Positions 4,425-56,021 of a stretch of DNA of 64,000 bases are shown in pieces (the stretch's first letter is position 1; each line of letters opens with the position of its first letter). Source of the DNA: Bisporella sp. PMI_857 (lineage: Eukaryota; Ascomycota; Leotiomycetes; Helotiales; Helotiaceae). The DNA is taken from the NCBI GenBank assembly GCA_021307315.1, contig JAJSPD010000011.1:248001-312000 (forward strand). The letters run 5' to 3'. Both the position numbers and the translations under genes were made by a program. Under the pieces are notes generated by a model. The model made no database searches, had not been told where the DNA came from, and saw only the letters and a program-made list of their open reading frames with translations.

Positions 4425-4674
4425 TGTAACAACTCAAGGCGAGCAGGGATCTCGATCCGTAGATCTCAGGAAAAAGGACTCAAAGGTATGAACGGCCGTC
4501 AATTGTTATAACGAAGAGAACAAGCTACAGATAGAGGAAAGGAAGGAAAGCAGGGCTTTATATACAGGAGACTGGCCAGGGGCCAGTGTAAGCGAGCCCT
4601 GTGGTGTCAGGGGTCGAGCCCTAAAAGGACGAGCCCCAAGGGGCTCTAAGCGAGATAGGGCCAGGGCTGTGACA
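4425..4674 (+). mobile_element. solo LTR, family A, copy 1
   Basis: 250 bp with TGTAACAACTC at the left end and GGGCTGTGACA at the right (TG...CA termini). The flanks are CCACC (4420-4424) and TCACC (4675-4679), a 5-bp target duplication with one C/T difference. Related copies lie at 53044 and 55622. No internal retrotransposon region adjoins it, so it is a solo LTR left by recombination. Confidence 0.85.
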
Positions 4675-7872: not shown

Positions 7873-8379
7873 GGGTTACAGTTGGGCCAGTCTAGAAAAA
7901 TCTTGGCCCAGGCTAGAAATCGTGCTTTGAGAGCTCAACCTGGCTAAAAATTTTACTCCGGCATATGCCAAGCATAGAATAAGCCACGCCAAGAAGACGT
8001 GCTTCAAGTTTTTTATAGCGACGCGTACAATATAACTTTTGAACTTTGAAATAAAAATGTTACAACTCTGTACTTTTGCGTTGCTTAATTGATTCGATTA
8101 TAAAGACTACTGGAAGTGAATTTGTAATTAAATAAATGAATGAGCTTAGTGTAAATGGAATTCCTTATGGGTATTTCAGCTCGCTTGGCACTACACGCTA
8201 AGCTTATGTTGTGCATTTGCCAAGCATAATTCTAACCAGATTTGGTTTTTCGCTTAAGTTCACCCAGTCTACAAATGGTTGCACAAAAAGTTTGGCCAGG
8301 CTAGAGCGTTTCTTGGCGTTTTGCCAAGGAATTTTCTGGCCTAGGCCAAGATTTTTCTAGATTGGCCCAACTGGAACCC
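7873..8379. mobile_element. 507-bp MITE with about 41-bp terminal inverted repeats
   Basis: The left end GGGTTACAGTTGGGCCA (7873-7913) is matched in reverse by the right end (about 8338-8379), including the shared core TCTAGAAAAATCTTGGCC. Three or four substitutions separate the arms. There is no coding capacity and no clear target duplication. It is probably a non-autonomous DNA transposon. Confidence 0.7.
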
Positions 8380-17451: not shown

Positions 17452-20400
17452 ATGACTACCAGAATGAAGGACTATAGCGCATGGTATGAACACAAGGACT
17501 TCATTCACAAGCTCTATGTTCTCGAGAAGAAATCTCAGGGGGAAGTACTTAATGTTATCACAAAGCCTCCGTATAGTCTTGAAGCAACGTAAGTCATTGG
17601 TTAATTTTGAACGCCAATAAACATAGATTGACGTCACGTAGTCCAGCGCAATTCGAACGCATTCTTGCAGAAGAGCTTAAAATAACGAAAAACCTCAAGG
17701 GTGGAGACTGGGTTGCGATAGAATACCATACTCAGAAGCGTAAACGACAAGGTTTGGACACGATTGTATACATTAATGATGAGCCTCAGAACGCCAAGAA
17801 GCTGGCGAAACAGGCCAACCGCTACCGTAATCGTGTGCCTGAGAATGGTGGTAAGTTCTTCCAAGAAATTCATTGGCAGGGCGATCTCCAAATCCAGTAC
17901 TGATATCTATCCAGCCAGAAGCCCGCTCTTGCCAAGTGGAGTTTTGTTGCAGACACCACCTCTGAGTCCCGCCGCCATTCATGGAACCGAAGCCGCTGTG
18001 AATGCTCATGTAGTTGGCCAAAATGTGATGACGACAATCGATAGTGGAGTGCTTTTTATGGATACGACATTCACAGATATTACTTTTGGTCTGGAGAATC
18101 TAGAAGAGTGTCTTCCTCTGGCCGACACGGTGACAAATGGCATGTTGGACAGAATGACTTTCTCTCCACTACAGTTGGATACCAGTTTGGCGGACTGGGA
18201 TAACAATGTGGTGATTGACGGCATGACTGATATTCCGGGCTCTCTGACCGTTATCGATCGCTACGTCAATCTCTTGAGTCCTTCTCCGTGGTTCACCTTT
18301 GTCGACTGGCTACTTCCAAAGCTGGAACGCTCGTGGATCCCACGAACGACCAGTACAGATGGTGGAAAGAATGCTCATCACAAAGAGGACGAAGGGCTAT
18401 CCGTGGTCTTGAAGACCATGGGCCTGGCTAAAAGTCATCAAAAAGGCTCGAAGCACGGAGCAGACTTCATATCAAGCGTCATACCAGAGCGGTTTAGTGG
18501 CGAGGTCGAAAACAAAATCGCAACGTTCAATGACCCCACACAGGCAAAAATTCAGGCCGCTGAGGTGATTTTGTCGTTACTCGCCAACAACCACAAGTCG
18601 GTCTCAGGAGGACAGCAGGCTGAAGAACTACGCAAATGGTTCATGGAGATACCAATCACGATTCTCGAGCTCGTCATTCATAAGCAGGATCCTACAGCAA
18701 CGGCCGTGACTAGCCGGCTCCTAGAATGGTCTATTACTCAGGATTATCTCGATGTCTTTCAAAGACTATGCGCCGCCAAGCTCAATGAAAGCTATCTGAC
18801 CGGAACCCGGGGAGGTCGTCTTCTCGTCAAAGCTTTGGAGCGTCTCTCGGGAGGCAATGATCTGGTCTTAGAGCTTTTGAAACACAAACCCAGATTGGAC
18901 TCCAGAGACGCGGAGCGGAATACACCTCTTCATTTGGCTGCCCGTCGTCGCGGCCCGGATGTTCTCGAAATTCTCGTAAAGCAAGGTGCTGATATGTCTA
19001 CCAAAAACGACAACTGGCATACCCCACTCCAGGCAGCAGTATTAGCGGAAAACCAGGAGAATGTAGGTTGGCTTCTCACTAATGGTGTGCCGCTCGACCA
19101 GCTGGAACAAGCATTGAGTCGGATGACTAATGTACCAACATTTGAACTGTGTAACTGTCTGTGGAATAAATATCCTAATGCCTCGAAGACATTAACTAAA
19201 TTCATCCTCATTTACGCGGCTGTGAGGGGTGCCGAAGATTTCGCAGACAAAGTGGAAGAAGTCTCAACACACTTTGAAGACAACACTACGATCCTGGAAG
19301 AAGCTTTCTGCTTAGCCATGCAAATGCTTCACGGTTATGAGACTTCCGACGAAGTTCACAGCTATTTTTACGAACTGAACAGCAGCGATTTTGGTGAAGC
19401 TGATGATGAGGGCCCAGTATGGGCGGAAGGCGATGTGATTCAAGTCTTCCTTGACTACGGTGTTGATTCAAATGTTCCCACAGTAACAGACGGCGACAAG
19501 CCACTGGCATTAGCGATAAGAACATGGACTGCAGAGGAGGTTCACGCTCTACTTGAACACGGCGCCCAAATTAACCAAAAGCTGTTGAGAATTCCGTTAA
19601 TTGCACGGTTCAACGCAACCAGACGCTACGACGTGGTGAAGTATCTATTCCTTACCAGGAAGCTTGACATCGACTATAATAGACGATTGAGCAATGGAAA
19701 TTACCCGCTCCAAGAGGTCTGCTCAATGCACAACGGATCTGATGGGTTCGCCCTCGTCAGGTCATTCATCAAAAAAGGTGCTAAGATCAACAGCCGACTT
19801 GGCGAACAGGATCGATTTACTGCGCTTCACTATGCCGTCCAGCATGCTCAAGTCAACACGGTCCGTTATCTGCTACGGAAAGGAGCGAGGACCAGACAAT
19901 GGGTCCGAACTCCGGGCAAATCTCTATTCGAAGTCTGTGTCGGGGAATGTCCATCTGGATGTCACTGGAATAGGGATCAAGAGATCTCCGCACGAGTCAA
20001 GATTTTCAAATTGCTCAAGGAAGTGGGAGCCGAGGCAGACGGCATTACCCTGAGCAGCGACTTTTCCTCCACAAACGTCCTGGCTGACGTGATGAAAACG
20101 TGGCCAGGCACGGAACTACAAGAGATGCTATCGAGGGAGGATACCGGGACTTCTGGAAGGGCAGTCTTGCCTGAGTTCGATGGCGGCAAGTGGCACAATC
20201 GTGGACCTTTCACGCCTCTTCAGATGGCAGTTAAGAGGCATGAGATGACAACTGTCAAGCTGTTGCTTGCTCAAGGTGCAAGTATCAACGCGTCAGCAGG
20301 GTCCAAGAATGGTGGGACCGCGTTACAACTAGCATGCGCTCGAAAGAGCGAGGACGGATCTGTGCTTGAGATGGTCTTGTATCTTCTCGAGAACGGTGCT

Positions 20401-20961
20401 GATGTTAATGGACGCGCGGCAGCCGACAGTGGCATGACGGCTTTGCAGAGGGCATGTGCTCGAAATCCTTTGGACTTTGACCTGATTCAATTGCTCCTCA
20501 AGCATGGAGCAGACGTGAATGGAGACCCAGCCAAAACATTTGGAAGGACAGCGCTTCAACTTGCCTGTAGCAGGGACGAAATCGATATGGCGCTTGTGAG
20601 AATGCTGGTGGAGCAGGAGGCCGATATCAACGCCGCCGCTGCCCCTACGAAAGGCATCACAGCCCTACAAGGCGCTGTAGTCAACGGGAACATAGACTTG
20701 GTAGCTTACCTGCTTGAGAAAGGAGCACAGGTAGATCTTGCGGGTGCTGAAAATGAAGGAAGAACTGCCATTGAAGCTGCTGCAGAACATGGCAGGTTGG
20801 TTATTGCCGGGATGCTGCTGAACGCGAGCAAAGTACTCGGCATTAGCCTGAACCTGTTAAGAGCGGTCCAAATGGCGACTGAGGAAGGGCATTATGGTGT
20901 AGTGAAGCTTTTCGAGGATCATTTGCGCGAGACGCAGCGCCGCTTCAGTCTCGAATTGTGA
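17452..20961 (+). CDS. Clr5-domain ankyrin-repeat protein, about 1130 aa
   Basis: Exons 17452-17588, 17642-17850 and 17915-20961 join in phase over introns with GTAAGT donors. Residues 1 to about 110 form a Clr5 domain (YSAWYEHKDFIHKLYVLEKK...SPAQFERILAEEL, NLKGGDW), a fungal N-terminal module thought to bind nucleic acid. A long unassigned middle follows (about 140-440). Then come roughly eleven ankyrin repeats to the end (NTPLHLAARR, TPLQAAVLAENQENV, TALHYAVQHAQVNTV, TALQLACARKSEDGS, TALQRACARNPLDFD, TALQLACSRDEIDMA). Clr5-ankyrin proteins often lie among fungal NLR/HET clusters. No break was found, and this is one of the few intact long genes in the left half. Confidence 0.85.
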
Positions 20962-27980: not shown

Positions 27981-28166
27981 ACTGTTGCGTTGTGTACGTG
28001 AATTCAATAAAGCGTAGCAGAGAGTGTATTGTAGCTCGTAAAGCTGTAGGTCAATACAGGTAAAAAGGTTGAATTGAGTTCTAAGTACAAAGAGAAACTA
28101 TCGCGTAATATAAAGCTTCCCGCACGTGATGACTAGTCGCTTAGAGCACACCGCCAAGAGGCGGGG

Positions 28167-28215
28167 CCTACAGCTCGGCGGGTGTAGAAAAAACTTCCGT
28201 GGGTGTAGAAAATGA
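28167..28215 (+). repeat. left TIR of the 5.84-kb transposon
   Basis: It contains two offset copies of GTGTAGAAAA (GGCGGGTGTAGAAAAAAC, then CGTGGGTGTAGAAAATGAC), matched in reverse at 33957-34004. The internal direct repeats may be transposase-binding sites. Confidence 0.85.
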
Positions 28216-28533
28216 CTGTGCGTAAAATGATGACTAAAACCTACACCCAGCGAGATTTTCTTGGCAACCCGTATTAGTACTAGGCGTAAGCTTTAATTGG
28301 ACGTATGCTTAACATATGCTGAGCATAAACCTTAATTAGAGTGCTACGCGTTAGGAAAGCGCGCCTTGGTAAGTAAAGCTAGTCCCAATATGGCAGGCCC
28401 GGCATAAGCCATGCACATCCCCCACCATCTTCTTTTCTTTTTTCTTTTCTTCCTTTCTCAAACAACAGCATACTAAGTATACGCCCACTATATTCCTAAT
28501 ATATGTGATCATTAGCTAACGGGTCTACAGTAT

Positions 28534-30193
28534 ATGCCCAACATGTCTTCTGCACACTTTGACAATGCCGCTGTCACTGGTGCCACAAACCCTAGTGCCT
28601 TTAGTTATCATTATGGTGAGCATATGCAAACACGCGTTGCAACACATACTAAGCATATGCAGGCCCTATCTCTAATAACAACATTGGCTGGCTTTTTGCG
28701 CGTCAACAAGAACATATTGACAATGGAGAATCAGGTAAGGATGTGCTTAGCATATGTTGAGAACACACTGACAAATAATAGCCCGTAATGCTCTTAATGT
28801 TACTGTTGATGACAACGCCGGTAAACACAACCCAGTTTACATTTTGCATGTGTTATGCATATGCTAACAGTGACAAGATTCCTTAAATGCTGCTGTTCAT
28901 TTTTCATTTATCAACACAGGCGTGTAAGTAGCATGTACTTATTACAGGCTTAGCACATGCTGACAATATACAGTTGTGGTATTGACGTAGGTGGTAGTAC
29001 AATGTGTGGTATCACTTTTGCTGCTTAACCTGCAGTATGTATTTAGCACAGTGACAGCATATACTCAGCTAATGCTATGTAGTTCCGCCGTCACTTTCGC
29101 AATGCTTATCTTGGTGCTAGTAAATATAAATATTTGTCAAAGCGGAGATGCAGCGCATATACTAACTTTATGCAGTTACCAACCCCAGCCGTGTCAATAC
29201 TAGTATTCAAGAGACAGTCGCTGGTCAAAAGTCAGTTTAATACATGTTTTGCATATGCTCAGCTGATACTTTGCTAGTGCTATCAAGTTGTACGTGCGAT
29301 CTGGTGGTTAGCGCAATGCCGACTTTGCTTTTGAACTCGGGTAAGTGTATGTTAACACTATGCTCCGCATATGCTTATTTTATAGACGTGGCCCCCCTGG
29401 AGGATTTATTGATCGCTATGCTATTACATGCGAAGAGATTGCGTAAGTCTGGCATGTGTTTTGCATAAGCTCCGCTAATGCTTACAGCCGTAATGATGCT
29501 GCTTTTGCTTCCAACTTTGGTACTCATTTTTATCGCTTAGTACGTTAATATAAGCTACACATATATTGAACATATGCGTGTTTTCTTTTTTTCCTCTGCT
29601 ATATATACTGCCATTTATACACACACATATATATATATACATACTTATTATTTAGCCTCAAATTAAATTGAAAGTCAAAAGAAAATTTGACAATACTTTC
29701 TCTGATATTTTTATAAACGTTGTATCCAGCACGTTAACACAAACACAACATATGCTTAGCACAACTACAACTGCAATACTTCATAAACAATTTCAACCAG
29801 TTGAGTTGATTCACATTTTGATTTAACCTAATTCAGCATACTTTTAGCATATGCTAACATTACTTCAGCTTATTGCTATTTTATTTTCTTTAGCTAAACG
29901 CAAAGTCAGTATTCACTTTGCATATATTAAGCATATACTAACAATATACTAGCGTAGCAATGATCTTTCTTAAAGTCTTGAGTCTCCTACCCGTAATAAA
30001 GGCAGTAAGTATGAATGAGACATATACTACGCATATGCTGACTTTATATTCAGAAAAGAAGTCTCGATCAGCCGTTAAGCTTACTATTGGTCCTGGCAGC
30101 CGTAAGTCCTATATATGTTATGTATAAGCTCCGCTGATACTAACAGGCAAATCTACCCGTACTCGTGCTTTTGCTGCTGCCAATGAGGCATAA
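28534..30193 (+). CDS. accessory transposon gene of unknown function with about 12 micro-introns
   Basis: Exon 1 (28534-28615) starts MPNMSSAHFDNAAVTG. Introns 28616-28662, 28735-28781 and 28821-28870 all fall in phase 1 and give HYG, then ISNNNIGWLFARQQEH, then NALNVTVDDNA. Further introns are 28924-28973, 29035-29082, 29120-29175, 29231-29277, 29341-29385, 29443-29487, 29905-29952, 30005-30053 and 30102-30146. The last exons read GGFIDRYAITCEEI, DAAFASNFGTHFYRL and SRKSTRTRAFAAANEA before TAA at 30191. Exon order between 28.9 and 29.9 kb is uncertain. The protein has no known domain; the C-terminus is basic (KKSRSAVK, RKSTRTR), which could mean nucleic-acid binding. Confidence 0.5.
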
Positions 30194-30391
30194 ATTGTGC
30201 ATATAACTAGCATGTGCAGCGATTTTGGCGCTTTAAGCTTTGTTAGTTTTTTAATGAATTTTATTCTTTGAAATTGTGTATAAAGTATGCTTAGCATATA
30301 CTTGTAATGTAAAATGCCATTCTTGATTTTTTAACTCCAAATGTGTATACCCGGGATACAGTGTGCATATGCTCTCTAGTGCTATAGCTAT

Positions 30392-33300
30392 TTATGATTC
30401 TAGTTCTTTCAATTCTTGTAACAAACGTTGCTTTTTTAACCGTAATCGCTGTGCTTCTCTAACATCTTTTAATCGCCGTTTTAAAGCTCGAACGCGATTT
30501 GTTGCCAACTGATTTTCTTGTGATAATGCTGATAGGCGGATGCTGCGTTGGCTGCGCATAAATTCAGCATATACTGGACTTGAAGCTCGAGATATCTAAT
30601 GATTACTATTATTAAATATACTTGATTCATTGTCAGATAAAGCAAGAACTGAACTTTGCCTAGCTTGAACTTCAGGTGTGTTATAAGGATTAGTAGGATT
30701 AAATGGCAAATAAGTACGTTGTTGTCGAGAAGCAGCTGCTTTTTTATGTATACGCTTTGCATATGTTAAATATATACTAGTCAAAATTCAAGCTACTTAC
30801 TTTTTTTGCGCTCAATTGTTTTAATACGAGCTTGATAGCTTTGATTTCTCTATGTATACTAACACTAGTAGTTTTTTGTATATCTTTTTGAGCAAAAACA
30901 TTAACTGTGTGTTGTTTAAGCCAGGTATATTGTTAGTATATGTACAGTATATGCGCCAGCTTTACTTACTTTAATATAGTATTTAATAAAGACGTTTTTC
31001 TTTCAGCAAAGTTATTGTCTTTAAAATGACTACTTTTACTAATACTAGTGTGTTTCCGAGCGTATATCCAATATTCGAAAAGCACTTTTGACTCTCTTTT
31101 TGTAAGGCCTGATATAATCTATAGCGCTTGTTTACTACGTATTTATGTCGTAAGCTCAGGATATTCTTGCATATGCTGGCTATACGTTCTAGCAACTTTG
31201 TTTTTGATTCAGCTGTTTATAAGCGTTCGGGCAATTCATAGCGAATAGGATGCTAAGGCTACTTTTTTGCAAAGTTGCGTTTTACATGAAGGCACAAAAC
31301 ACTAATACATATTGCAAATGCTTAGCTTAGCTTCGACTTGGATCAAGTGACCGAAAGTAATTTTCAAGCTGGATATGTTCAGTATATGTTCGTATATGCA
31401 TAGTATATGCTTACTTTTTGCTTGCTTTTTACACATGTTTAAACCAATTGTGCGAATAGAATTTTCAGCTTGATGTATATGCAAAACTTAACTGGCTGCC
31501 GAGATACTTTTGCTAAAGTTTGAAATATAAAAGTAAAAAGTTTAAAATACTTAAACTAGTATTTTTATTTGTAAATGCATATGTATATACATATAATCTT
31601 ACTACTATAAGCTTTATATAAGCTGGGCATATGTTCAACTTACGTTTAGCATTATTATCAGCTAGAAATCGAAAATAAATTAATATTTCCAGCTACTATT
31701 TTGAAAGATAAGTCAATTTTAATAGCAGTTGTTTGAGCAAAAGTTTTTGCTTGTTGAAAAGTACAACAAACAATAATGAAATGCTTTAGATTTAAGCGTT
31801 TGATCATTTTAATCCATCGTTCGTTATTAGGCAAATGTTTTTCGATAGAATATTCACGCTCAACACTTGCTGAGTGTAAGTATAGCATATGCTTCGCATA
31901 AATTCAACTTACCAGCGTAACTAGTTCTTGCCGGGTATTCTATTAATCTTTGCTTGCGTATTAATGCAGTTAGTCGATCTGATATATTTAAGCTGGCATA
32001 AATAGCTTGTAAAGTACTAGCGTTATACATATGTAATAACGAAGTATATGCAGGCGAAAGAATAAACCGTTCTATAGTATAATGTTAGCATGTAGTCAGT
32101 ATATGCTTAGCTCAGTGTTAATATACGCGCGGTTGTGTCCAATACTTCTCTACGCTCTAAAACAGCTATTACATTATCGGCTATATCTTTTGGCATACGA
32201 GTAGGATATGGCGGGTGATGATCATGAAAACCACGTGCTACTAAGCATACATATGGATGTCGATACATATTTAGTGGTATATAAAGATCAAATAATGCTT
32301 CGCATTTATAAATAAGAACTTTGCTTGATTCTTGTGATAGTTATGCTTGTATATGATCAGCATATGTTTAGCACTTGCTTATGATATGTTTAGAAAGCTT
32401 ACCGCATTTTGTTTTTTTTTCTGTTATTTGGCCTATATAAGTACATGTATTTTGATTAAAGTTTTGCCTTTGATAAATTAAGGTCTTTAAATGATTTAAG
32501 TCTAATCTAGAAGTAGTTGCTGGAATTGACTGTGCTGTATGCTATAGTTCGTGGTCTGAGTTATTAGAACATTCAATAAAAGTAATCTAGTTATAGTCAG
32601 CATATGCTAAACATATAAACAGCATTTGCTTACTCTATTTCTAATAAACATTTCAAGCTTTTGCTTTTTGCAAGTATATTCATTATTGTTGAATTTGCAA
32701 TGGCTTTTATTAGTTTGTTGCCAGTTTTGCATAAATGCATAATAATATGCGTTTGTTAAAGCATATATTTTTTGAAATATCGGTAAATCAATATATTTTG
32801 ATGTATATCGATTTCGTAAATCATTAATATGCTTTAGCTTAACGTCGTTATATGCTGAGTTTATGCTGAGTATATACTCGTGAGCAAATTCACAATATTT
32901 AATGCCGCTGCAACGATATGATCGATGCCAGGCTTTTTGTTTTTCTCTTTTTTCATTTTTACTTAGAATATCTAATTTCACAATATTGAAATTCGTTTTT
33001 GTATGTGAAAATTGAATTTATTATTGCAATTAATAATGTGTACAAGCAGAGTATATGCTATACATACTTTAGACATAATTTGCGTTGATGCTTTATACAC
33101 CTGAGTCTTAGTTGCTAACAATTCAAATAATGGCTTATTTAAATGAATAAAATGTGCAACTTTTGTACTGGTTGTTTTCGGGTAGCTAAGCATATCTATG
33201 TGATTTATTACTTTTTCAACTATTACTTTAGAACGGCTATTTGAGCTTATAATACAGCCGAATTTATAAGCTGTGCTTTGTATATAGTCAGCATGTGTTC

Positions 33301-33560
33301 AAGATATGCTGGCATATGTACTCACTTAAAGGCCACTTATATCAAGAATATCAGGCTTTAATTCACTTTTTTCGAAAGAACTACTAGACTCTGAGCGACA
33401 AGATGAATAATTGCTTTTTTGAGCAACTTTATTATTCTCGTTTAAAGAAGTTTCTTGAATCTATATTATTAACATAAGGTCAGCATATGCAAAACATATG
33501 TAAGACATCTTTAACCTATTATTACTTACTGGCAAGCTATTTACTTATCGCAATACGTTC
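30392..33560 (-). pseudogene. transposase of the 5.84-kb element, intron-rich and decayed
   Basis: Read on the minus strand: RSYRCSGIKYCEFAHEY and CLVARGFHDHHPPYPTRMP form a CxxxxC...HxH zinc pattern. Next are QRFILSPAYTSLL and SDRLTALIRKQRL, a DDE-type block with an Asp (QTTAIKIDLSFKIVAG), then HIHQAENSIRTIGL with NMCKKQA, LENYFRSLDPSRS and a coiled-coil tail ending NQLATNRVRALKRRL...LQELKELES. Introns (minus) include 33461-33528, 33276-33325, 32587-32633, 32331-32402, 32072-32126, 31870-31912, 31605-31643, 31369-31414, 30905-30969 and 30739-30800. Stops interrupt at the end of the 33.4-kb exon, in the 31.5-31.3 kb exons and before the last exon. An Asn stands where relatives are expected to have Asp ('LDMC'), so it is probably dead. 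Confidence 0.65.
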
Positions 33561-33956
33561 TTATTTACAGAAATAGACATTTTGGCCTTTATTGAAATAG
33601 TAAATAACTAGAAAGTTTGTTTTCAATAGAAAGATTTCTCAAGAATATGGTGCAAATGTGTGAAGCATAAGTTCTGCATATGTTGAAGAGTACTTCTCTT
33701 TCTTTTAATATATGTAGCTTCAACCCTTTTTTTTCCTTTTTCTTTTTCTTTTCTTTTTTTGGCATATGCATAATTCAATTTCTTTTAGCTTGTTATATTA
33801 TTATTTTTTAATTGCTTATACATTAAGCTTAATATTGTAATTTAACTAAGAAATTGCCCAAGCATATGCTCAAAATATGCCTTCCTACAGCTAGGGGGGC
33901 CTTGCTTAGCGTTACAGGGTAAAAATTTTCTACACCCACGGAGTTACTTTTTTCCG

Positions 33957-34004
33957 GTCATTTTCTACACCCACGGAAGTTTTTTCTACACCCGCCGAGC
34001 TGTA
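33957..34004 (-). repeat. right TIR of the 5.84-kb transposon
   Basis: Reverse complement of the left TIR with essentially no difference in the 48-bp core. A third, partial TTTTCTACACCCACGGAG copy lies just inside at 33927-33944. Confidence 0.85.
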
Positions 34005-34078
34005 ACCCGCAAGAAGGCGGTGAGCTCAACCGAGCTTCGCCTTGGCAATTCAGGGGCGCTGCCTTACATAATAGGTGT

Positions 34079-53043: not shown

Positions 53044-53164
53044 TGTAGCAACTCAAGGCGAACAGGGATCTCGATCCTTGGATCTCAGCACTCAAAGGTG
53101 TGAAAGACTGTCAATTTTTATAACTAAGAGAACAAGCTACAGATAGAAGAAAGGAAGGAAAGCA
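53044..53164 (+). mobile_element. family A LTR fragment, copy 2
   Basis: TGTAGCAACTCAAGGCGA to GGAAGGAAAGCA. It matches the first 120 bp of the copy at 4425 and is truncated on the right. Confidence 0.8.
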
Positions 53165-55529: not shown

Positions 55530-56021
55530 TGTGCTGCGTGCTGGCGCAAATTACCGGCAATTGAATTCCTTAAAAATGGGATTACAGACGAAAACAGCAA
55601 GGGCTATCGAAAGCTCGTGTCTGTAACAACTCAAGACGAACAGGGATCTCGATCCGTGGATCTCAGGAAAAGGAACTCAAAAGTGTGAACGACTGTCAAT
55701 TGTTATAACTAAGAGAACAAGCCACAGACAGAAGAAGGGAAGGAGAGCAGAGGAGAGCAGAGGCTGGCCAGAGGCCAGCGTAAACGAGCCCTGTGGTGTC
55801 CGGGGCCAAGCTCTAAGCGAGACAGGGCCAGGGCCGTGACAGTGTCATGCAATAAATGCCATGAGCAGGCTGCGGCCAGGAGGGAGAAAGCTAAGTCTAA
55901 AAAAGCTTTACAGGCTATTGATGCTAATCCTCGAAATAAAAAAGCGCGTTTACAGCCCCGAAATCCTACCGCTCAAGATCAAGCTTCCGGAAATCCTCCT
56001 GCCCAAGAACAGGCTCCTTAA
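55530..56021 (+). pseudogene. CxxC...CxxC zinc-ribbon-like frame cut by a solo LTR
   Basis: From 55530 the frame reads CAACWRKLPAIEFLKNGITD, runs to the LTR at 55622, and resumes after it as SCNKCHEQAAARREKAKSKK, ending at 56021. Taking out the LTR and one copy of its 5-bp duplication joins the two parts in the same frame. The paired CxxC motifs plus a basic tail recall short fungal zinc-ribbon motifs. The true start and the family are unknown. Confidence 0.5.
55622..55841 (+). mobile_element. solo LTR, family A, copy 3
   Basis: 220 bp from TGTAACAACTCAAGAC to GGGCCGTGACA with perfect target duplication GTGTC (55617-55621 and 55842-55846). Confidence 0.92.

Follow-up and report, generated by a model that had tools for sequence, protein, structure and literature searches.

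The window analyzed in the current study, a stretch of 64,000 nucleotides, is part of contig C13 of the 55.6-Mb genome of Bisporella sp. PMI_857, and harbors an element that is probably a two-gene Mutator-like transposon (Mutator-like element, MULE), the predicted introns of which carry a common 11-nt tandem repeat. The original prediction, made from this sequence alone, had described 48-bp terminal inverted repeats (TIRs) and two convergent genes, and both are borne out: the ends of the element are identical at 48 of 48 bp, while an accessory gene on the plus strand faces a predicted transposase gene on the minus strand. The true ends each lie 3 bp outside those first noted, placing the element at 28164-34009, as deduced from a sister copy on contig C67 that is flanked by a perfect 9-bp target duplication (CTCATGTAT, 9/9). 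A relative on contig C20 exhibits a perfect 10-bp duplication (CATTTACAGC, 10/10), while that of the window copy is one base off. Perfect 9- and 10-bp duplications are typical of Mutator-like elements, in which target duplications of approximately 8-11 bp are expected (the window copy being near-perfect at 9-10 bp), and they replace a TA target duplication, which was dropped. The 48-bp TIRs and a second gene convergent on the transposase gene, as in Mutyl-type elements, are likewise in accord with a probable MULE.

The C67 sister copy is 95% identical to the window element and carries a 1.4-kb insertion. Three further partial copies were found in the genome, along with distant relatives on contigs C20, C221, C189 and C168, which exhibit 72-78% DNA identity in their longest matches. 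The C20 relative is the best preserved of those used and has the same gene order, with a TIR of different sequence (GGGTTACAGTTGGGCC...); the pieces on C189 are rearranged. The window copy is damaged, with in-frame stops in the accessory and transposase genes alike, and of the 249 substitutions that separate it from its C67 sister, 246 are transitions, most of them C/T changes preceding A or T, a pattern such as repeat-induced point mutation would leave. The substitutions relative to the C67 copy (L008) are also strand-asymmetric, many being C/T, with 41 sites where an A of the window corresponds to a G of C67 and only two in the reverse direction. Of note, the window contains a second, short and non-autonomous element at 7873-8379, a deletion derivative with the C20-type TIR; it has no tandem array, and keeps one unit-like word near its end.

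The accessory protein comprises about 230-300 amino acids (aa), with a C2H2-like finger, matched by the Pfam profile zf-C2H2 below the cut-off (E 0.16 to 7e-4), and a basic tail. A profile search returned at least 32 family members, including proteins from Penicillium, Paecilomyces, Monascus, Colletotrichum, Diaporthe, Xylariales, Eremomyces and Lepraria, and 16 columns are invariant across 19 aligned members. The protein (P0004 family) has a confident predicted fold (mean predicted local distance difference test score, pLDDT, of 85, with block means mostly above 90 over residues 10-180), for which no match was returned among the solved structures of the PDB; a scan of viral contigs returned no accessory protein. 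For the transposase, a first search gave one homologue among the matches listed. Spliced alignment to the Tricladium protein P0002 yielded 228 of 503 identical residues for the window gene and 413 of 626 for the spliced exons of the C20 minus-strand gene. Residues 216-267 of P0002 align with positions 2-52 of the Pfam profile MULE, below the cut-off (E 0.042); Pfam returned no match on the C20 transposase piece and none above the cut-off on trial exon pieces. A sequence search of the PDB with P0002 yielded no noteworthy match, and an AlphaFold model of P0002 alone had no usable fold (pLDDT 35.7).

About 22 introns had been proposed, and the present models agree, with 12 array introns assigned to the accessory gene and 10 to the transposase gene, the first three of the former (starting at 28616, 28735 and 28821) all being of phase 1, as foreseen. 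These segments are predicted to be introns on the combined evidence of gene models, a homologue, codon rhythm and codon-position divergence. The public protein B0O99DRAFT_591728 (P0009) corresponds exactly to the sequence at 28212-29970, where its model places 13 introns, of which eight equal those listed here, three merge an intron with a neighboring exon and two lie upstream of the likely true start. Likewise, B0O99DRAFT_695963 (P0003) maps letter for letter onto the C67 copy, where 13 introns interrupt a gene for 229 aa (18.8 introns per kb of coding sequence), and a third public Bisporella protein maps in the same manner to C221. Copies with uninterrupted open reading frames at these places, which the original prediction had named as contrary evidence, were not encountered in the material compared: the Tricladium protein P0004 lacks six of the array segments, running uninterrupted across them exactly, in both copies (in a spliced alignment for which the protein sequence still contained alignment gaps), and P0002 agrees at several. 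Furthermore, the C20 plus-gene exons exhibit a 3-nt codon rhythm (z 4.0 and 5.1 at lags 3 and 6) that is absent from the introns, and between the window and C20 the exons differ at 17, 9 and 29% of sites at codon positions 1, 2 and 3, respectively. The annotated introns have GT-AG ends, and a CTRAY word lies in range in 24 of 32 C67 and C20 introns. Intron ends are less certain in the minus-strand gene than in the plus-strand gene; with P0002 as the guide, the aligner placed seven introns in the minus gene of C20, comprising three clean array introns with GT-AG ends, a long one that ends in an array, and three rough ones with GC donors.

The motif shared by these introns is one unit of an 11-nt tandem repeat, GCATATGCTNA, present in about three head-to-tail copies per intron. 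That introns on both strands of the transposon share sequence while the exons do not had been recognized previously, and the motif is now refined to this unit: 14 of the 18 window occurrences of GCATATGC lie inside the element, and across the genome GCATATGCTRAC occurs 52 times as against five for the reversed control. A typical C20 intron reads GTAAGTCTG-GCATGTGTTCT-GCATATGCTCT-GCTAATGCTGA-CAG, and a second GTAA-GCATATGCCAA-GCATATACTAA-ATATATACTAA-CTAAACAG. Ten consensus columns hold at 65-92% over 52 units, these having been selected for a score of at least 6 of 10. The core word CATA[TA][GA] was found 51 times in the window element (shuffled mean 12.8), and among its pairs up to 21 bp apart eleven are spaced at exactly 11 bp and one at 12; in C20, where such words number 46 (shuffled 12.0), four pairs are 11 bp apart and one pair 6 bp. 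Units scoring at least 8 of 10 number 64 in the window element (shuffled 11.6), compared to a density of 0.86 per kb elsewhere in the window, and 72 in C20 (shuffled 9.9). They are concentrated in introns, the C20 plus gene having 25 in 775 nt of intron and one in 885 nt of exon (odds ratio 29, p 6e-8), while in the C20 minus gene the modelled introns (388 nt) contain 14 and the other 3109 nt, which still include introns outside the model, contain 25.

The 11-nt rhythm was also evident from the identity of each sequence with itself at a lag of 11 nt. As the C20 introns and part of the 18 in the window were curated by eye, which favors the pattern, the annotated sets of C67, the window and C221 constitute the unbiased test. 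Lag-11 identity was 0.418 in the annotated introns of C67 (13 of 13; shuffled mean 0.281, z 7.9) and 0.381 in those of the window (13 of 13; 0.277, z 7.5), while in the C221 gene the six introns of the element part gave z 4.5 and the three of an unrelated 5' part z 0.4. The 20 curated C20 introns gave 0.53 against 0.27 (z 13.1; z 6.8 at lag 22), compared to z -0.9 for the C20 plus-gene exons and 1.7 for the stretches between modelled introns of the minus gene. No lag-11 signal was detected in 22 host intron candidates (z -1.1), which were chosen by consensus; perhaps one third of these are false, since five shuffled sets yielded 5 to 10 each.

The arrays vary in length by whole units. At 19 places where intron 1 of the transposase gene could be compared, the array comprises between 3 and about 7 units, changing by approximately 11 nt at a time: by the authors' own reading, 3 units were counted in eight, 3-4 in one, 4 in five, 5-6 in four and 6-7 in one. 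These places derive from 21 rows after removal of the C67 row, which represents another intron, and of L083, a repeat of L064; L072 and L082 do not span the donor, and those of the 19 that are near-identical to one another do not count as independent. The tandem pattern has at least 255 matches in the genome, both strands being counted at palindromic places, as against none for the control. All 20 of the array regions examined among these matches, two of which are one place, match the 5' region of the transposase gene; they represent shortened, non-autonomous members of the element family or mere fragments, and thus none is a host gene. Many derivatives in the L064-L083 series are approximately 0.5-0.9 kb long, with internal deletions that seem to end inside 11-nt units, and unit-to-unit recombination seems to have made some of them. 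Separately, the tandem word is present in six viral contigs.

Within the arrays, conservation is uneven. Between the window and C20 the last unit differs at 9 of 119 sites (8%), as opposed to 41 of 182 (23%) for the upstream units and 33 of 144 (23%) for non-unit intron sequence, the latter two being indistinguishable (p 1.0). The difference persists when only consensus-matching sites are counted (5 of 97 in the last unit, 25 of 146 upstream, p 0.005). Since the last unit is conserved and the others change like their background, decay of an ancestral array is suggested, together with selection on the unit that bears the branch site.

Traces of the repeat are also apparent in other fungi. By back-translation the unit would encode peptides such as HML, AYAE and YTEHM, and 19 eight-residue stretches fitting the tandem unit with at most 3 mismatches occur in 7 of 33 homologues (9895 aa), compared to a mean of 0.18 (maximum 3 in 200) for shuffled proteins and 0.67 (maximum 8 in 200) for permuted units. 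These stretches overlap to form nine sites, two of which have the same peptide (P0016 and P0037), and the other 26 proteins have none. For example, P0016 of Lepraria has 16 extra residues exactly where Bisporella intron 1 sits, and its codons, as judged from the peptide, would fit a GTCAGT donor in the same phase, the unit and a CAG acceptor, as expected of an unremoved 48-nt intron. Lepraria, Paecilomyces and Tricladium represent three classes.

It is considered somewhat probable that the introns arose inside the element by amplification of the 11-nt unit, as opposed to the duplication of complete introns. The unit ends in CTNA, which would provide the core of a branch site, the join between two units would give NAG, an acceptor, and single changes in the unit would create GT donors; an exon with three or four consecutive units would thus contain a near-spliceable intron, and it is because the unit and its join already come so close to one that the introns are proposed to have grown from the repeat. 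Such runs would be tolerated in transposon genes as they could be spliced, would spread and change length by whole units, and selection would then hold mainly the unit serving as branch site. As parts of this proposal we infer both the spliced state of the segments and the birth of each single intron. The more general notion of a new route of intron birth, by which an 11-nt repeat with its own branch site and acceptor turns transposon exons into intron-exon mosaics, and which has continued to operate within a single Mutator-like lineage spanning several ascomycete classes, is put forward as a tentative possibility.

Several observations weigh against amplification of the unit. The introns are predicted ones, and those of the plus gene are common to the window, C67 and C20 copies, so that no gain has been caught in the act. 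In several copies, arrays of more than 3 units are, by eye, joined by an internal deletion to a unit in exon 2, and because these arrays run into that unit, part of the length variation reflects deletion and not growth. Some units lie in transposase-gene exons, 7 of the 72 C20 units lie outside both genes, and a single unit-like word is kept near one end of C20 and of several shortened copies. Among introns with a CTRAY in range, this word matches the register of a strong unit's end in only 4 of 9 in C67 and in 5 of 10 and 3 of 5 in C20 (12, 12 and 8 introns examined, respectively). Finally, although the upstream units evolve like background in Bisporella, the unit is found again in distant homologues, a recurrence that requires renewal or an unseen constraint.

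This recurrence, like the unit-like word kept near one end (also in the 7873-8379 derivative), is what would be expected if the units were binding sites for the C2H2 accessory protein or the transposase, a 10-bp palindrome, AGCATATGCT, being presented about once per helical turn and parked in introns that tolerate it. The palindromic core, the strict 11-bp step, the C2H2-like finger and the occurrence of units in element ends and some exons are in line with such a role. However, the upstream units are unconstrained relative to the intron background, which makes it doubtful that every unit is a binding site, even if the word kept near one end points the other way for its own site; the 48-bp TIR has no unit, and the 7873-8379 copy, although presumably moved, has no array. 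This explanation is regarded as rather unlikely. An RNA-level role, in which tandem CTNA words would form a splicing-factor array through which the element controls its own splicing, could draw on the branch-like words themselves, on the constrained last unit and on a precedent in Gomafu RNA, where tandem UACUAAC is a binding site for SF1 and influences the kinetics of splicing in vitro (PMC3116199). The freely changing upstream units argue against it too, and RNA hairpins were discarded as the main constraint, given that predicted folding is only mildly stronger than in shuffled sequences (mean z -0.8 and -1.3 for C20, -0.9 for C67, -0.5 for the window), and such a role is deemed very unlikely.

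The original prediction had taken the introns to be copies of one another and hence of introner-like origin within a mobile element. The mobile element stands, while the introner label fits only loosely, the resemblance consisting of a tandem repeat inside each intron. Certain pairs do show a striking resemblance, such as the two 45-nt introns at 29443 and 30102, and one pair of a plus-gene and a minus-gene intron in C20 scores 31; this best score was nevertheless reached by 3 of 60 simulations based on the unit profile, so that pairs are no more alike than simulated ones and near-identical whole-intron copies, the mark of introners, are lacking. The introns also differ in unit register and prefix, and the rhythm is absent from the 22 host candidates, all of which renders the copying of one whole intron into many places of both genes distinctly unlikely. 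That these are ordinary host introns with a common branch-site context is hardly tenable. TGCTRAC is an ordinary fungal branch site, and a GCATA or CATATG-like word occurs in 7 of 22 host candidates, compared to 6 of 8 strict candidates in the window element and 8 of 9 in that of C20, so that a weaker form of the word is not peculiar to the element; CATA directly precedes the branch in none of the 22 host candidates as against 4 of 17 introns in the element, and these word counts, with the lag-11 result, contradict a host-wide intron feature to the extent that these candidates represent host introns.

The two convergent genes recall mudrA and mudrB of maize MuDR, which differs in having few introns and long TIRs. 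In the literature searched, which mostly excludes subscription papers, no transposon of the present structure was recognized, as the original prediction had supposed. According to the available portions of the sources, Mutyl of Yarrowia lipolytica is likewise a MULE with a transposase gene, an antisense second gene and a 9-10 bp target duplication, with a TIR of 22 bp (PMC6446971, PMC5014426), and an intron in its first gene is alternatively spliced (PMC2911113); that one intron contrasts with some twenty here, and no 11-nt repeat is mentioned in those portions. No Yarrowia protein was among the 17 and 32 matches listed for the accessory protein, the second Mutyl protein not having been compared. 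Fungal introner-like elements of Cladosporium and Dothistroma are also short, sequence-sharing introns in Ascomycota, whereas the introns described here share an 11-nt unit and are confined, as far as examined, to one transposon family. The sequence-similar stwintrons of Hypoxylaceae are proliferated ascomycete introns with internal symmetry, described in the accessible text as having 45-55 nt terminal inverted repeats and as whole introns at new gene positions (PMC8469720), unlike an 11-nt tandem repeat inside a transposon. Intron gain by tandem genomic duplication similarly derives new intron sequence from a local tandem duplication, there, as far as the source was available, of one exonic segment with AGGT sequences as splice sites (PMC3443670), as opposed to a short unit repeated several times at many sites. 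The origin of introns is an old open question, and many recent gains have no visible source; if amplification of the unit is true, some twenty introns of a single small element would still display their source, in the form of the 11-nt rhythm. The element would then offer a compact system in which a defined unit and its length variants could be used to test how introns are born and spliced, and the unit may account for the motif-bearing peptides of annotated proteins in related elements. The coordinates of all features are given in Table 1.

Table 1. Features of the transposon in the window (positions refer to the 64,000-nt stretch)
Feature	Position	Strand	Phase	Basis and remarks
Two-gene element, probably Mutator-like (MULE)	28164..34009			TIRs; comparison with C67 and C20 copies
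Left target duplication, CAAGAGGCG	28155..28163			Read from sequence; C67 sister has perfect CTCATGTAT on both sides
Right target duplication, CAAGAAGGCG	34010..34019			One base longer than the left one
Left TIR, perfect inner 48 bp	28169..28216	+
Right TIR, perfect inner 48 bp	33957..34004	-
Accessory gene (C2H2-type protein, basic tail)	28543..30193	+		P0009 and P0003 models, homologues, spliced alignment; 12 array introns and two less clear
Intron 1	28616..28662	+	1	Annotated in P0009
Intron 2	28735..28781	+	1	Public gene models
Intron 3	28821..28877	+	1	Public gene models
Intron 4	28924..28973	+	2	Gene models and spliced alignment
Intron 5	29035..29082	+	0	Spliced alignment; nr model merges it with the preceding, stop-bearing exon
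Intron 6	29120..29175	+	1	Gene models and spliced alignment
Intron 7	29231..29277	+	2	Gene models and spliced alignment
Intron 8	29341..29385	+	2	Spliced alignment; annotated in C67 copy
Intron 9	29443..29487	+	2	Gene models and spliced alignment
Array intron	29905..29952	+	0	Public gene models
Array intron	30005..30053	+		Annotated at orthologous C67 place
Array intron	30102..30146	+		Annotated at orthologous C67 place
Predicted MULE transposase gene	30392..33580	-		Spliced alignment to Tricladium P0002; in-frame stops; about 10 array introns
Array intron	33461..33529	-		By eye, beyond homologue coverage
Array intron	33276..33325	-		By eye, beyond homologue coverage
Array intron	32587..32633	-
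Array intron	32346..32402	-		Aligner chose 32374-32324 instead
Array intron	32072..32126	-		Spliced alignment
Array intron	31870..31912	-		Spliced alignment
Array intron	31605..31643	-		Spliced alignment; acceptor uncertain by 3 nt
Array intron	31369..31414	-		Spliced alignment
Array intron	30921..30969	-		3' end uncertain; missed by aligner
Array intron	30755..30800	-		Spliced alignment

Elsewhere, an apparently unrelated repeat of approximately 120-220 bp was found within derivative L067 (919-1142), with three copies in the window at 4425-4624, 53044-53164 and 55622-55841. The window also includes, at 17764-20961 on the plus strand, a single-exon open reading frame of 1065 codons, which by eye reads as an ankyrin-repeat protein.

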